DNA of 64,000 nucleotides, taken from NCBI GenBank assembly GCA_902604855.1, contig CACLAF010000001.1, positions 124,001 to 188,000 on the forward strand, written 5' to 3'. How positions within the stretch are numbered: the first letter of the stretch is position 1; every line of letters starts with the position of its first letter. Shown one piece after another: positions 48,858-55,722 of this stretch. The translations under genes and the position numbers were made by a program. The stretch is from an uncultured SAR86 cluster bacterium (GTDB taxonomy: Bacteria > Pseudomonadota > Gammaproteobacteria > Magnimaribacterales > Magnimaribacteraceae). The notes under the pieces were generated by a model. The model saw only the letters and a list, made by a program, of their open reading frames with translations. It had not been told where the DNA came from and did no database searches.

Positions 48858-48932
48858 ATCAAATTCCTTTATTTTTTTTATATTCTATCGATATAAATTA
48901 TTTTATGTAGAGTAAATGGATTATTCAGAATA

Positions 48933-48938
48933 TATAAT
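48933..48938 (+). promoter_or_regulatory. -10 box placing algC transcription start at its start codon
   Basis: A perfect TATAAT ends exactly 6 nt before the algC GTG (48945), so the expected +1 is the G of the start codon. There is no Shine-Dalgarno upstream. Confidence 0.4.
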
Positions 48939-48944
48939 TACAAA

Positions 48945-50309
48945 GTGGAGATAAACCATAATATATTTAGGGCTAATGATATTAGAGGGATAGCCTATGA
49001 TGACCTAACCCCAGAAGTAGTTCAAAGTCTTGGCAGAGCTTTAGGCTCAGAAGCAATTGATAGAAATATCCAAGAATTCATCGTTGGAAGAGATGCAAGA
49101 CTTTCAAGTCCTGAAATTTACGATTGGCTCTCTTCAGGAATAATATCTACTGGCTGTAATGTGATTGATATTGGCATAGTTACAAGTCCAATGTTCTATC
49201 ACTCAACTTATGAATTAAACACGTCAAGTGGCGTCGTAATAACAGGCAGTCATAATCCTGGAAACTACAATGGATTCAAAATTGTTTTTAATAATCATTC
49301 GACATCTAGCGAAGAAATCTTGAATCTTAAGCAAAGGATCTTAGAAGAAAATTTTTTAGGGGGAAAAGGGATAACAAAGAAAGAAGATATTAAGGAGACC
49401 TATATAAAAAGTATATTGGAAAGCATTAAACTAAATAAAAATCTAAATATCTCAATAGATTGTGGGAATGGTGTAGCCGGAGTTGTGGCGAAGGATGTAT
49501 ATGAAAGATTAGGATGCAATGTAATAGAGTTACATGGAGAACCAGATGGTTCCTTCCCAAATCATCATCCTGATCCGTCAAAATTAGAAAATATGAAGGA
49601 TCTCATTAAGAGTGTTAAAGAGAATAAATGTTCGGTGGGGCTGGCTTTTGATGGAGATGCCGACAGATTAGGTGTAATTTCTCCAATGGGAGAAATGATC
49701 TTCCCTGATAGACAGATGATAATGTTTTCGAGACAAGTCATTCAATCTAGTCCGAATGCTAAGATTGTTTTTGATGTTAAGTGCTCCAAACTGCTTTCAG
49801 ATGAAATTAAAAAGCTCAAAGGAATGCCCTTGATATGCAAAACTGGTCATACTTTTATAAAACAGAAAATAAGGGAAACAGATGCCTTACTGGGAGGTGA
49901 AATGAGTGGTCATATTTTCTTTAATGATAGATGGCCAGGATTTGATGATGGGATATATGCTGGCGCCAGAATGCTAGAAATAATTGCAAATTCTGGACAA
50001 GACGATCCATTTGTAACTGTTCCTAACATGCTTTCAACTCCAGAGATAAATATACCTGCTGCAGACGAAGAAAAATTTCAAATAGTAAAAACATTTATAG
50101 AAAATTCTAATTTTAGTGACGCTAAAATAGTTAGCATAGATGGTATAAGAGTTGAATTTGAAAAAGGTTGGGGATTGTTGAGGCCATCAAATACTTCACC
50201 TTGTCTAGTATTGAGATTCGAAGCTGAAACAAATGATGATTTAAAAAAGATAAAAGAGATTTTTTACTTAGGATTAAAGAGCATAAAACCAAATATAAAT
50301 AAATTTTAA
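48945..50309 (+). CDS. algC: phosphomannomutase/phosphoglucomutase
   Basis: Interconverts hexose 6- and 1-phosphates for LPS and exopolysaccharide sugars. The 454-aa protein follows Pseudomonas AlgC closely: NIFRANDIRGIAYDDL, the phosphoserine loop TGSHNPGNYNGFKI, metal loop AFDGDADRLGV, sugar loop GEMSGHIFF and the phosphate-binding RPSNTSPCLVLRFEAE. GTG at 48945 is chosen because the conserved FRANDIRG stretch starts seven residues later and no in-frame ATG precedes it. argB begins 2 nt after its stop, as in Pseudomonas. Confidence 0.94.
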   Translation: MEINHNIFRANDIRGIAYDDLTPEVVQSLGRALGSEAIDRNIQEFIVGRDARLSSPEIYDWLSSGIISTGCNVIDIGIVTSPMFYHSTYELNTSSGVVITGSHNPGNYNGFKIVFNNHSTSSEEILNLKQRILEENFLGGKGITKKEDIKETYIKSILESIKLNKNLNISIDCGNGVAGVVAKDVYERLGCNVIELHGEPDGSFPNHHPDPSKLENMKDLIKSVKENKCSVGLAFDGDADRLGVISPMGEMIFPDRQMIMFSRQVIQSSPNAKIVFDVKCSKLLSDEIKKLKGMPLICKTGHTFIKQKIRETDALLGGEMSGHIFFNDRWPGFDDGIYAGARMLEIIANSGQDDPFVTVPNMLSTPEINIPAADEEKFQIVKTFIENSNFSDAKIVSIDGIRVEFEKGWGLLRPSNTSPCLVLRFEAETNDDLKKIKEIFYLGLKSIKPNINKF

Positions 50310-51772: not shown

Positions 51773-54134
51773 GGATGCTCTCTTCTAGAAAGTATTCAAA
51801 CATAGGTTTATTAGTTTGCTCATTGGCTAATTTACCTGAATCCCTATCAATTTTAACTATCGATAAACCCTTAGGAGGAAGTGCAGAAGACATCGGTATT
51901 TCATCTATTATTTGTTTTTTATAATTCAGCCAGATAGGCAGGGCTATGGATGAGCCGAACTCTCGGTCTCCTAAACTCTTAGGTTGATCAAATCCAACCC
52001 AAACAGATGTAACAATTTGATCATTATATCCAGTAAACCATGTGCTTTCAGCTTCGTTTGTTGTACCAGTTTTACCAGCAAAATCTTTTCTTTGTAGTTC
52101 AGAGATTTTTCTAGCTGTCCCTCTAACTGCAGCTTCTTTTAAGATATCATTGATCAAAAAAGCTATCCTTGAGTCAATAACTTGTTGCGGATATTGTATT
52201 TTTTTTTCAAATAGAATCTTGCCAGATCTATCTAAGATCTTCGAGATCAAATAAGGTTCGACCTTTTTTCCTTCATTTGCAAATACCGAATAGGCTACTG
52301 CATTTGATAAAGGATTTAATGATGCCGTTCCTAAAGATAAAGAAAGATCTGCAGGCATTCTTTGCTTATCAAATCCAAATTTTTCGGCAAAATTTCTAAC
52401 TTTATCAACCCCTAATTCCCTTAATAACCTAACGGATACAAGGTTTCTACTTTGCAGTAAACCTTCGCGAAGTCTTGTCGGTCCATAGAATTTACCGCTA
52501 GCATTCCTTGGTTTCCATTTTTCTTCTAAAGCCTCATCTTCAAATATAATTGGTGCATCATTGATAAGAGAAGAAGGTGTAAATCCGTCTGAAAAAGCAG
52601 CTGCGTACAAAAATGGCTTAAAATTTGAACCCAGTAATGGAGAAGCTTGTTCTACCCTGTTAAATTTACTCAAGAAGAAATCATATCCTCCTACTGAGGC
52701 AAGTATTGAACCTGATTTTGGATCAATCGAAACTAATGCACTTTGTGCTTCAGGAATTTGGGTAAGAGAAATAGTTTTAGTGAGATTATCTTTAGACAGC
52801 CATACTAAATCACCTAGTTTAATTATATCTAAAAAGGATCTAGGTCTTGCACCTCTTCTATTTTCGGAAATGTAAGGTCGTGCCCACTTTAAATCTTCAT
52901 TCCACTTAATATTAAGAAGATTGCCGTATTTTGTAAGAACTTCTAGGTTCTTTAAATTATCAGTTACTACTCCTATGAAACGTTCTTTATTGTCAGTAAA
53001 TGTCTCTAGGTATTGGAAAACATTAGATAGATCTGATTTCTCTTCTAAGTCCCTTGATTCTATGTTCAAAGTTTCTTCTGCTTCATAAATCTTTTCTTCT
53101 TTTGAATATTGAAAAAAATTTTCAGGGAAGAGGTTGAATATATTTTCTGGTTCACGAAAACCATGCCTTTTATCATAATCTTCTAAACCTGATCTTAAAG
53201 CATCTGCGGCATGATTTTGGAATTTTGAATTAATAGTCGTATAAACCTTAAGTCCCTCAGAATATGCTTTTAAACCATATTCCTGAATCATATAGCGCCT
53301 TACTTCCTCAGCGACATAAGGTGCCTCAACTTCTGAAACTAGACCATAATAATTAGCACTTATTGGCGCTTCAATTGCGATATTAAACTGATCTTTATGA
53401 ATATATTTTAAATCGAGCATTCTTTGTAGAATCCAATTACGTCTTATCAATGCCCTTTTTGGGTTAACGAGAGGATTTATGGAAGAAGGTGCCTTTGGAA
53501 GTGCAGCAATCATTGCCCATTGGGCTAAATTTAAATCTGATAAAGGCCTGCCATAGTAAACTTCACTGGCAGCAGCAATTCCGTAGGCCCGATTTCCAAA
53601 GAAAATTCTATTCACATAAAACTCAAAAATTTCTTCTTTTGAGTATGTCTTTTCTAATCTATAGGCTAGAAATATATCTTTTACTTTTCGAAAAAGACTT
53701 ATATCTCTACTAGTTAAATAATTCCCTGCAACCTGCATTGTTATAGTGCTTCCTCCTCCTTGGATTCGGCCTGAAACTGCAACCCTATAAAGAGACCTAA
53801 GAAGTCCGGTATAACTCACTCCAGAATGAGAAAAAAATTTATCATCCTCCGCTGCCAATACAGCATTTACATAATGATTTGGTATTTCATTAAAATTTAA
53901 AGCCGTTCTTCTTTGTTCCCCAAACTCACCTATTAATTTGCCATCTGAAGAAAAGATTTTGAGGGGTATCTGAAGTTCGATATCTCTAATGGTTTGTTCA
54001 TTTGGCAGCTTGCTATCAATATATATATTCAAACTAGATAAGGACATTAAAGAAATACAAAAGAATATAAGAAAAACCTTTCCATATAAGCTGAATGAGA
54101 ACGAAATGAAGTATGTTTTTAATTTAAGCCACAT
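51765..54134 (-). CDS. mrcA: penicillin-binding protein 1A
   Basis: Bifunctional peptidoglycan glycosyltransferase and transpeptidase. The 789-aa protein has a cytoplasmic tail and membrane anchor (residues about 15-35), the GT51 motifs NAVLAAEDDKFFSHSGV and GGGSTITMQVAGNYL, the OB-like insert, and the transpeptidase motifs SNFK (S503), SRN and KTGTT (K688). It is slightly shorter than E. coli PBP1A. No Shine-Dalgarno precedes the ATG. A TATAAC box ends 6 nt upstream, overlapping the -10 box of divergent aroK. In Pseudomonas-type genomes pilMNOPQ lies between these genes; here the gap is 20 bp. Confidence 0.96.
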   Translation of the reverse strand: MWLKLKTYFISFSFSLYGKVFLIFFCISLMSLSSLNIYIDSKLPNEQTIRDIELQIPLKIFSSDGKLIGEFGEQRRTALNFNEIPNHYVNAVLAAEDDKFFSHSGVSYTGLLRSLYRVAVSGRIQGGGSTITMQVAGNYLTSRDISLFRKVKDIFLAYRLEKTYSKEEIFEFYVNRIFFGNRAYGIAAASEVYYGRPLSDLNLAQWAMIAALPKAPSSINPLVNPKRALIRRNWILQRMLDLKYIHKDQFNIAIEAPISANYYGLVSEVEAPYVAEEVRRYMIQEYGLKAYSEGLKVYTTINSKFQNHAADALRSGLEDYDKRHGFREPENIFNLFPENFFQYSKEEKIYEAEETLNIESRDLEEKSDLSNVFQYLETFTDNKERFIGVVTDNLKNLEVLTKYGNLLNIKWNEDLKWARPYISENRRGARPRSFLDIIKLGDLVWLSKDNLTKTISLTQIPEAQSALVSIDPKSGSILASVGGYDFFLSKFNRVEQASPLLGSNFKPFLYAAAFSDGFTPSSLINDAPIIFEDEALEEKWKPRNASGKFYGPTRLREGLLQSRNLVSVRLLRELGVDKVRNFAEKFGFDKQRMPADLSLSLGTASLNPLSNAVAYSVFANEGKKVEPYLISKILDRSGKILFEKKIQYPQQVIDSRIAFLINDILKEAAVRGTARKISELQRKDFAGKTGTTNEAESTWFTGYNDQIVTSVWVGFDQPKSLGDREFGSSIALPIWLNYKKQIIDEIPMSSALPPKGLSIVKIDRDSGKLANEQTNKPMFEYFLEESIPN

Positions 54135-54154
54135 CTAGGAGTTATAATAACCTA
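54135..54154. promoter_or_regulatory. 20-bp bidirectional promoter core between mrcA and aroK
   Basis: The near-palindrome GTTATAAT at 54141-54148 provides TATAAT for aroK (54143-54148) and TATAAC for mrcA (54146-54141, minus strand). Each hexamer ends exactly 6 nt from its start codon, so both transcripts would be leaderless. Any -35 elements must lie inside the opposite coding region. Confidence 0.45.
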
Positions 54155-54652
54155 ATGAGGCTAATAATTATCGGCTCTATGGCTTCTGGCAAGTCTACTT
54201 TAGGGAGAAAACTCTCTAAAAAGTTAGGCCTAGATTTTTTTGATATAGATAATGAAATTGAGAATATAGCTGGAGCTACAATATCTTGGATTTTTGATGT
54301 TGAAGGTGAAGAAAAATTTAGAGACAGGGAGCATGAAGCATTTAGTAATCTTGCTACTAATGAAAATTGTGTGATTTCAACAGGCGGCGGTATAGTTTTA
54401 AGAAAAGAAAATAGAGAATTGTTAAATAAAGGTACAGTAATATACTTGGAAATAAGTATTCAAACTCAATTAGAAAGAACTATTAATGATCAAGATAGGC
54501 CGCTTCTTTATGGGGTTAATAAAGAAAAGACACTCAGAAAAATAGCTGAGATACGCAATCCAATCTACGAAGCCTATAGCGATATAACGATAAAAGAAAC
54601 AAATGATCCAAATGAAGCTGCAGATCTGATTGTTTTAAAGTTAAAAGAATGA
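54155..54652 (+). CDS. aroK: shikimate kinase
   Basis: Phosphorylates shikimate in aromatic amino acid synthesis. The 165-aa protein has the P-loop GSMASGKSTLGRKL, FFDIDNEIE, EKFRDREHEAF, the CVISTGGGIVLRKENRELL stretch and the lid region DQDRPLL. It starts with no Shine-Dalgarno, 20 bp from the divergent mrcA start, and its stop overlaps the aroB start by 4 nt (ATGA). Confidence 0.96.
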   Translation: MRLIIIGSMASGKSTLGRKLSKKLGLDFFDIDNEIENIAGATISWIFDVEGEEKFRDREHEAFSNLATNENCVISTGGGIVLRKENRELLNKGTVIYLEISIQTQLERTINDQDRPLLYGVNKEKTLRKIAEIRNPIYEAYSDITIKETNDPNEAADLIVLKLKE

Positions 54653-55722
54653 AAGAGATAAAGATAAATACAGAGTCTAGAAATTATCCAGTTTTAGTAG
54701 GAACGGATATTCTTAATGAGAATAATTTAAATGAGTTTTCAAATAAAGAAATTCTATTAGTCATTGATTCAAAAATTGAAGAATCTTTAAAAAAAGAAGC
54801 TCAGATAACTCTATCAAATATATCATCGAAGTATTCTGAATTAATTTTAGAAGCAAGTGAAGAAAATAAGTCTAGCACCACATTGTCCATCATTCATGAT
54901 GTACTCATTGAGCAAAGCTATAGTAGAGACTGCATCCTTTTTGCACTTGGAGGAGGTATCATTTGTGATATTACAGGATTTGCAGCTGCTACCTACCTTA
55001 GGGGAGTCGACTTTGTTCTAATTCCCTCAACCTTACTATCTCAAGTCGATGCTTCGGTAGGTGGAAAAACAGCCATAAATCATCCTAAAGGAAAGAATAT
55101 GATTGGAGCTTTTCATCAACCTTCAAAGGTATTAACCGATACTAAACTTTTAAAAAGTTTAGAAAAAGTACAAATAAGAGAAGGTCTGGCAGAGATTATC
55201 AAACATGCCCTAATAAAAGATAAAACTTTTTTCAAATGGTTAGAAGAAAATATAGAAGACCTATTAGAGGCTAATGATGAAAAGCTATTAGAAGCTATTT
55301 CTAAATCCATCGAGATAAAAGCGGAAGTAGTCTCAAAGGATGAAACCGAGCAAGGAATTAGAAAATGGCTTAACTTTGGTCATACTTTTGGACATGCCAT
55401 TGAAGTTTACGGTAACTATAAGAGATTTTCTCATGGTGAGGCTGTTGCAATAGGAATGTTGATGGCTACAAATTTATCTCATAAAATTCTAAATCTCGAA
55501 AAAGCAGAAATAGATAAGATTAAGTGCCTTATTCGTTCTATCCTTACTGATGAATTAGTAAAAAGTGAATTTCAACCAATTGATTTGGTAAAACTGATGT
55601 CAGCAGATAAAAAAAAGAAAGGGGATAATCTGAATTTTATTTTGCTAAGCTCTATCGGGGAAGCACAAATCTCATCCGATATACAAGAATCCGATATTAT
55701 CGATTCTATAAAATTAACCTAG
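54649..55722 (+). CDS. aroB: 3-dehydroquinate synthase
   Basis: NAD- and metal-dependent cyclisation of DAHP to 3-dehydroquinate. The 357-aa protein has the glycine-rich LFALGGGIICDITGFAAATYLRG region, PSTLLSQVDASVGGKTAIN, and the metal-ligand segments GLAEIIKHALI and FGHTFGHAIEVY with HGEAVAIGM. aroK-aroB coupling is the standard gammaproteobacterial arrangement. In relatives damX follows; here gltB comes next after 107 bp. Confidence 0.97.
   Translation: MKEIKINTESRNYPVLVGTDILNENNLNEFSNKEILLVIDSKIEESLKKEAQITLSNISSKYSELILEASEENKSSTTLSIIHDVLIEQSYSRDCILFALGGGIICDITGFAAATYLRGVDFVLIPSTLLSQVDASVGGKTAINHPKGKNMIGAFHQPSKVLTDTKLLKSLEKVQIREGLAEIIKHALIKDKTFFKWLEENIEDLLEANDEKLLEAISKSIEIKAEVVSKDETEQGIRKWLNFGHTFGHAIEVYGNYKRFSHGEAVAIGMLMATNLSHKILNLEKAEIDKIKCLIRSILTDELVKSEFQPIDLVKLMSADKKKKGDNLNFILLSSIGEAQISSDIQESDIIDSIKLT

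Follow-up and report, generated by a model that had tools for sequence, protein, structure and literature searches.

A 20-bp divergent gap between mrcA and aroK in SAR86 that probably carries one bidirectional -10 element for leaderless or nearly leaderless transcripts

The mrcA/aroK locus

SAR86 is an abundant uncultured ocean lineage. Within the 64,000-nucleotide stretch analyzed here (the window) from a SAR86 genome of 1.356 Mb in 24 contigs, a gap of only 20 bp separates two divergent units, mrcA (minus strand) and aroK-aroB (plus strand) (Table 1). The gap letters, CTAGGAGTTATAATAACCTA, and the 6-nt distances between its hexamers and the two start codons are as an earlier reading made without database searches (the sequence-only reading) gave them. 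The aroK product matches the Pfam SKI profile (E=3e-50). For mrcA the top NCBIfam model is MrcA (E=2e-196), yet the match falls under the cut-off of that model; the protein passes the cut-off of the PBP1A family TIGR02074, and MrcA is 91-95% identical in close relatives.

As judged from the reading frames, both start codons are fixed, with no other sensible choice. The mrcA ATG at 54134 is immediately preceded by an in-frame TAG (minus strand, 54137-54135), a stop directly ahead of this ATG is found in 17 of the 18 genus genomes compared, and the next in-frame ATG, 107 bp from aroK, lies within the protein. Upstream of the aroK ATG at 54155, the frame contains no ATG, GTG or TTG as far as a stop at 54125.

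Table 1. Features of the mrcA/aroK region, in coordinates of the window
Feature	Position	Strand	Remarks
mrcA, class A penicillin-binding protein (PBP1A family), 789 aa	51765-54134	-	Profile match
44-nt conserved block	54131-54174		25 parsimony changes
Predicted mrcA +1 zone, 0-3 nt leader	54134-54137	-	From TATTAT/TATAAC positions
Whole mrcA/aroK gap	54135-54154		20 bp exactly in 18/18 genus genomes with aroK
AGGAG, Shine-Dalgarno (SD)-like	54137-54141	+	13 nt before aroK ATG; 15/18 genus genomes
TATAAC, mrcA -10 of the sequence-only reading	54141-54146	-	25/29 f1 loci
GTTATAATAAC, odd palindrome GTTAT-A-ATAAC	54141-54151		Invariant in genus, 18/18 genomes
Candidate aroK -10, TATAAT	54143-54148	+	6 nt (54149-54154) to ATG; same place in 29/29 f1 loci
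Preferred candidate mrcA -10, TATTAT	54144-54149	-	TATAATA in 29/29 f1 loci
aroK, shikimate kinase, 165 aa	54155-54652	+	Profile match
Predicted +1 of leaderless aroK mRNA (A of ATG)	54155	+	From -10 position
aroK codons 2-6, with unusual third-position conservation	54158-54172	-	Putative mrcA spacer/-35 region
aroB, 3-dehydroquinate synthase	54649-55722	+	Start overlaps aroK stop

Conservation of the gap in the genus and family

Of the 19 genomes available for the genus, 18 contain aroK (G017 lacks it), and in every one of these the gap has CAT and ATG at its ends with GTTATAATAAC identical; the motif, whose variation among relatives the sequence-only reading had proposed to check, is therefore kept in 18 of 18, in favor of that reading. 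Over a gene tree with a length of 3.15 substitutions per site, the gap length is unchanged and 15 of the 20 positions are invariant. Parsimony assigns 13 changes to the 20 sites, nine of them at the neighboring sites 54152 and 54153. By comparison, third-codon sites of mrcA and aroK changed ~3.6 times each on average, and 20 such sites drawn at random never had as few as 13 changes (200,000 draws). The conserved block extends beyond the gap, comprising codon 1 and the first base of codon 2 of mrcA, the gap, and aroK codons 1-7 as far as the second base of codon 7; all other 44-nt windows (473 in aroK and 1163 in the part of mrcA examined) have at least 37 changes. The mrcA/aroK arrangement, unlike the 8-mer alone, exceeds chance. 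GTTATAAT by itself is not rare, occurring three times in the window versus 3.96 expected, and motif rarity was dropped as an argument, the count being at expectation.

Across the window's family (f1), TATAATA lies exactly 6 nt from the aroK ATG in 29 of 29 loci, including all 11 loci from the five other genera. These 29 loci derive from 35 family genomes, of which three without a match and three with only a distant paralogue-like match (G019, G021 and G026) were left out. The mrcA start is shifted in the 11 non-genus loci, which have gaps of 28-58 bp as called; a 2-bp gap called in L031 probably reflects a spurious upstream ATG. With mrcA starting farther off outside the genus, only the aroK half of the geometry is shared by the family and the mrcA half is genus-specific; GTTATAATAAC is found in only one of the 11 loci.

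At the level of the order, the comparison covered families f2 and f3 (40 loci chosen among the matches listed, none from f4), with letters judged by eye for the eight loci (g11 and g21) whose start was not located by the script. TATAAT-N6-ATG precedes aroK in six of the 40, all from genus g9, indicating that the aroK geometry is not order-wide. Most f3 loci have a TAAAAT-like box farther from aroK. The two genes are also divergent in both f3 loci tested for gene order (L041 and L042), with a promoter different from that in the window, so the gene pair is older than the compact promoter, which may have arisen within family f1 and been completed in the window's genus. The six g9 loci (L060, L061, L066 and L068-L070, family f2) place the aroK TATAAT 6 nt from the start codon and their sister genera do not, a distribution for which independent gain or loss is possible.

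A proposed shared -10 element and its alternatives

The odd palindrome within the gap provides a -10 hexamer for aroK and two overlapping candidates for mrcA. The sequence-only reading chose TATAAC (minus strand, 54146 to 54141) for mrcA; its distance of 6 nt (54140-54135) to the ATG holds, but TATTAT (54149 to 54144), offset by three bases, is more likely the better -10. TATTAT is favored because it has both key bases, -11A and -7T, whereas TATAAC lacks -7T; because it scores higher, at 4.52 versus 0.76 with E. coli base frequencies; and because all 29 family loci retain TATAATA, versus 25 of 29 for GTTATA on the TATAAC side. Moreover, the -11A and -7T of TATTAT coincide with the -7T and -11A of the aroK TATAAT (base pairs A54144/T and T54148/A), giving the opposite-strand overlap with reciprocal -7T/-11A pairing that marks bidirectional promoters of the shared -10 kind. 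With TATTAT as its -10, the mrcA side would place this promoter in the common ~18-bp bidirectional class; reciprocal pairing is given as one reason why that class is the commonest (PMC10268837).

From the position of its -10 element, aroK is very probably leaderless. In all 29 family loci, the window's own included, a TANNNT box begins at -12, and no SD lies between the predicted start and the start codon. For mrcA, TATTAT predicts a start near 54137-54136 and TATAAC one at 54134, the likeliest purine being the A at 54136 (minus strand). A start at 54137-54134, with a leader of 0-3 nt, is thus more likely than one exactly on the ATG, where the sequence-only reading had put it. The TANNNT pattern is split between the two mrcA candidates: in TATAAC the first T is at -12 and the final T is missing, and TATTAT has both T's and begins at -15. 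The minus strand ahead of the mrcA ATG reads TAGGTTATTATAACTCCTAG, with an AGG alone at least 14 nt away. The claim that neither gene has an SD is therefore nearly true, failing literally only for the AGGAG ahead of aroK, which lies 5' of the -10 element and upstream of the predicted transcript. The predicted divergent starts are 18-21 bp apart; the bidirectional class is defined by a distance of 7-25 bp between mapped pairs.

The outer promoter parts would fall in coding sequence. With a spacer of 17 bp, the aroK -35 would be at 54120-54125, within mrcA, and the mrcA -35 at 54167-54172, within aroK; neither resembles TTGACA. Since there is no good -35, a generic two-box promoter scan gave no match at this -10 element; its four matches in the region are in line with shuffled sequences (3.3 expected), and the scan is uninformative at this gap. 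Such -35-poor elements are probably weak. In aroK codons 2-6 there are eight third-position changes over the five sites, compared with a mean of 3.5 each (~17.6 on average for five), and five-codon windows this low number eight of 161 in aroK and two of 282 in mrcA. A contribution of the mrcA promoter spacer and -35 region to this constraint is suggestive only.

Taken together, the sequence, its spacing and conservation, and the genus-wide excess of the aroK geometry (see below) make it probable that the gap is one bidirectional sigma70-type promoter; the start sites, two-way activity, translation without a leader and weak interference at basal activity are inferred from these. The near-symmetric -10 element (TATAATA within GTTATAATAAC) would load RNA polymerase in either orientation. 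Rightward polymerase would use TATAAT and begin a leaderless aroK-aroB mRNA at the A of the aroK start codon; leftward polymerase would use mainly TATTAT, with TATAAC as an alternative, and start 0-3 nt before the mrcA ATG, yielding an mRNA that is leaderless or nearly so. The -35 and spacer of each promoter would lie within the other gene, in its first codons. Both the shared symmetric -10 element and the leaderless aroK geometry, already proposed in the sequence-only reading, are supported by the sequence and its conservation. That reading further held that expression of the two genes is mutually exclusive. Simultaneous occupancy by two polymerases is indeed sterically excluded, but exclusive expression does not follow, to judge from E. 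coli: all five bidirectional promoters tested were basally too weak for the directions to interfere, blocking one direction hardly affected the other, and interference was seen only when one direction was activated (PMC12825309). By analogy, only weak interference between the directions would be expected here at basal activity. We advance more tentatively the idea that a single -10 element with two leaderless mRNAs makes this a minimal gap (the -10 and two 6-nt discriminators) resistant to indels, in which polymerase orientation couples expression of a peptidoglycan polymerase to that of the shikimate pathway.

Three other explanations have to be weighed against a bidirectional promoter. It is unlikely, though worth serious consideration, that the -10 element drives only a leaderless aroK, with mrcA transcribed from a promoter within aroK behind a normal but SD-poor leader and the symmetry a by-product of TATAAT. 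TATAATA is inherently symmetric, five genera (g2-g4, g6 and g7) fix the aroK distance and vary that of mrcA, and TTGCCA-17-AATTAT at 54192-54164, within aroK, faces mrcA. Yet this two-box match is one of those no better than shuffles, a leader from it would have no SD near the mrcA ATG, and the 18 genus genomes show no variation in the 20-bp length or at the mrcA-proximal positions 54136, 54137, 54139, 54141 and 54142. Both genes might also be reached from promoters within the opposite gene.

We regard as quite improbable a block conserved mainly as the operator of a dimeric regulator covering both gene starts, its -10 likeness being secondary. The palindrome GTTAT-A-ATAAC, which extends to GAGTTATAATAACTC where aroK is preceded by ...AACTCA, is what such a site might look like, and the block does extend into aroK codon 6; however, across six genera it is TATAAT with its 6-nt spacing that survives and not the flanking palindrome, as the single non-genus occurrence of GTTATAATAAC attests, and TATAAT-N6-ATG recurs at unrelated genes (see below). 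SD-led translation of aroK through AGGAG, from a transcript begun farther upstream, is highly improbable: although AGGAG is present in most of the genus, it is missing from three of the 18 genus genomes and, at this position, from all 11 other family loci, where TATAAT stays, its distance of 13 nt is outside the spacers 6-8 at which SD motifs peak in this genome, and its bases double as the mrcA start region on the minus strand.

Promoters that fire both ways from one -10 element have been described by Warman, Grainger and colleagues (PMC12825309 and PMC10268837), the founding paper reportedly dating from 2021. The bidirectional promoter proposed for the mrcA/aroK gap resembles them in the opposite-strand overlap of the -10 elements, the reciprocal -7T/-11A bases, the 18-bp class, and predicted starts 18-21 bp apart between divergent protein genes. 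It differs in that both predicted starts lie on or within 3 nt of the start codons, the gap consists of the -10 element and two discriminators with the outer promoter parts in coding sequences, the arrangement is retained genus-wide, and the organism is uncultured and known here from sequence alone. TA-led leaderless bacterial genes carry TANNNT ~12 bp ahead of the start codon (Zheng et al. 2011, PMC3160421), and a -10 motif 6-7 bp before the ORF is described for Deinococcus (PMC12340547). aroK is alike in having the first T of TATAAT 12 bp before the ATG and a predicted transcript without an SD, whereas the mrcA/aroK element would serve two divergent genes; SAR86, a gammaproteobacterium, is also outside the two gamma orders named as leaderless-rich in PMC3160421.

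Neither leaderless genes nor promoters sharing a -10 element are new in themselves. As far as our searches go, what appears to be new is a gap made of a shared -10 element and two discriminators between two predicted leaderless genes, fixed in a genus. A full-text search for SAR86 and leaderless found no paper, and among works on bidirectional or divergent leaderless promoters none appears to match, as judged from titles, the starts of abstracts and, for one paper, passages of its text, mostly outside subscription journals. If correct, the mrcA/aroK gap would represent an extreme of genome compaction, with two genes, one -10 element and no untranslated leader. The predicted 5' ends (54155 and 54134-54137) can be checked in marine metatranscriptomes, and the gap offers a natural test of competition between opposite polymerases at a shared -10 element.

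TATAAT six nucleotides before other start codons

In the 19 genus genomes, TATAAT-N6-ATG occurs 454 times versus a mean of 280 per control spacer (814 in total for spacers 3-5, 667 for 7-8 and 200 for 9), and the pattern read backwards occurs 259 times. The count exceeds the genome's own control mean in 18 of the 19 genomes and the spacer 9 count in all 19. The excess of ~9-13 per genome means that a minority of genes is concerned. Among 354 crudely called genes (381 kb) of the window's genome, five have an exact TATAAT at spacer 6, and the other spacers average 0.7. These calls took as start the upstream-most ATG without overlap of a neighbor, a home-made coding score having given wrong starts for aroK and mrcA; aroK has an upstream gap of 107 in this table, which retains the crude start of its neighbor. 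For TATAATN{0,20}ATG as a whole there is no excess in this genome (351 versus 401 backwards), and spacer 6 alone stands out. SD motifs are most frequent at spacers 6-8, which makes SD-led translation the main mode, and the counts argue for leaderless starts as a genuine, if minor, mode in this SAR86 genus, suggesting that a minority of SAR86 genes use leaderless initiation. A leaderless minority beside leadered genes is also seen in another proteobacterium, Zymomonas mobilis, where 119 of 2,675 experimentally mapped TSS-gene pairs are leaderless; the part of that article available to us (PMC7566282) reports no leaderless pair with a shared promoter.

A second case in the window is a phosphohexomutase-like gene (named by eye) with a GTG start at 48945 and TATAAT 6 nt ahead (48933-48945). 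A TANNNT box lies 6 nt before an ATG or GTG here and in all 10 genus loci compared (L083-L085 and L087-L093); the spacing is constant as the start codon alternates between GTG and ATG, and the box is TATACT in L083. The 6-nt spacing is absent in three loci outside the genus (L095, L097 and L099), and the start was not located in L096. Farther 5' of this gene, at ~48885-48910, members of the genus share a strikingly conserved stretch resembling CTATCGATATAAATTATTTTATRTAGA, possibly a regulator site or a further part of the promoter.

Elsewhere in the window's genome (G000), TATAAT-N6-ATG is also found on the minus strand at C1:21130, C1:92389 and C2:8351, ahead of genes whose first residues, by eye, resemble guaB, a sugar-phosphate nucleotidyltransferase and purB, respectively. 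Finally, a divergent gap of 14 bp, shorter than that between mrcA and aroK, separates tyrosyl-tRNA synthetase-like and M23-peptidase-like genes (named by eye) at G000:C1:204007-204020 (L125, 16007-16020). There TATAAT lies 9 nt before the tyrosyl-tRNA synthetase-like gene, and similar TATAAT-N9-ATG strings are present in 11 other genus genomes among the matches listed.
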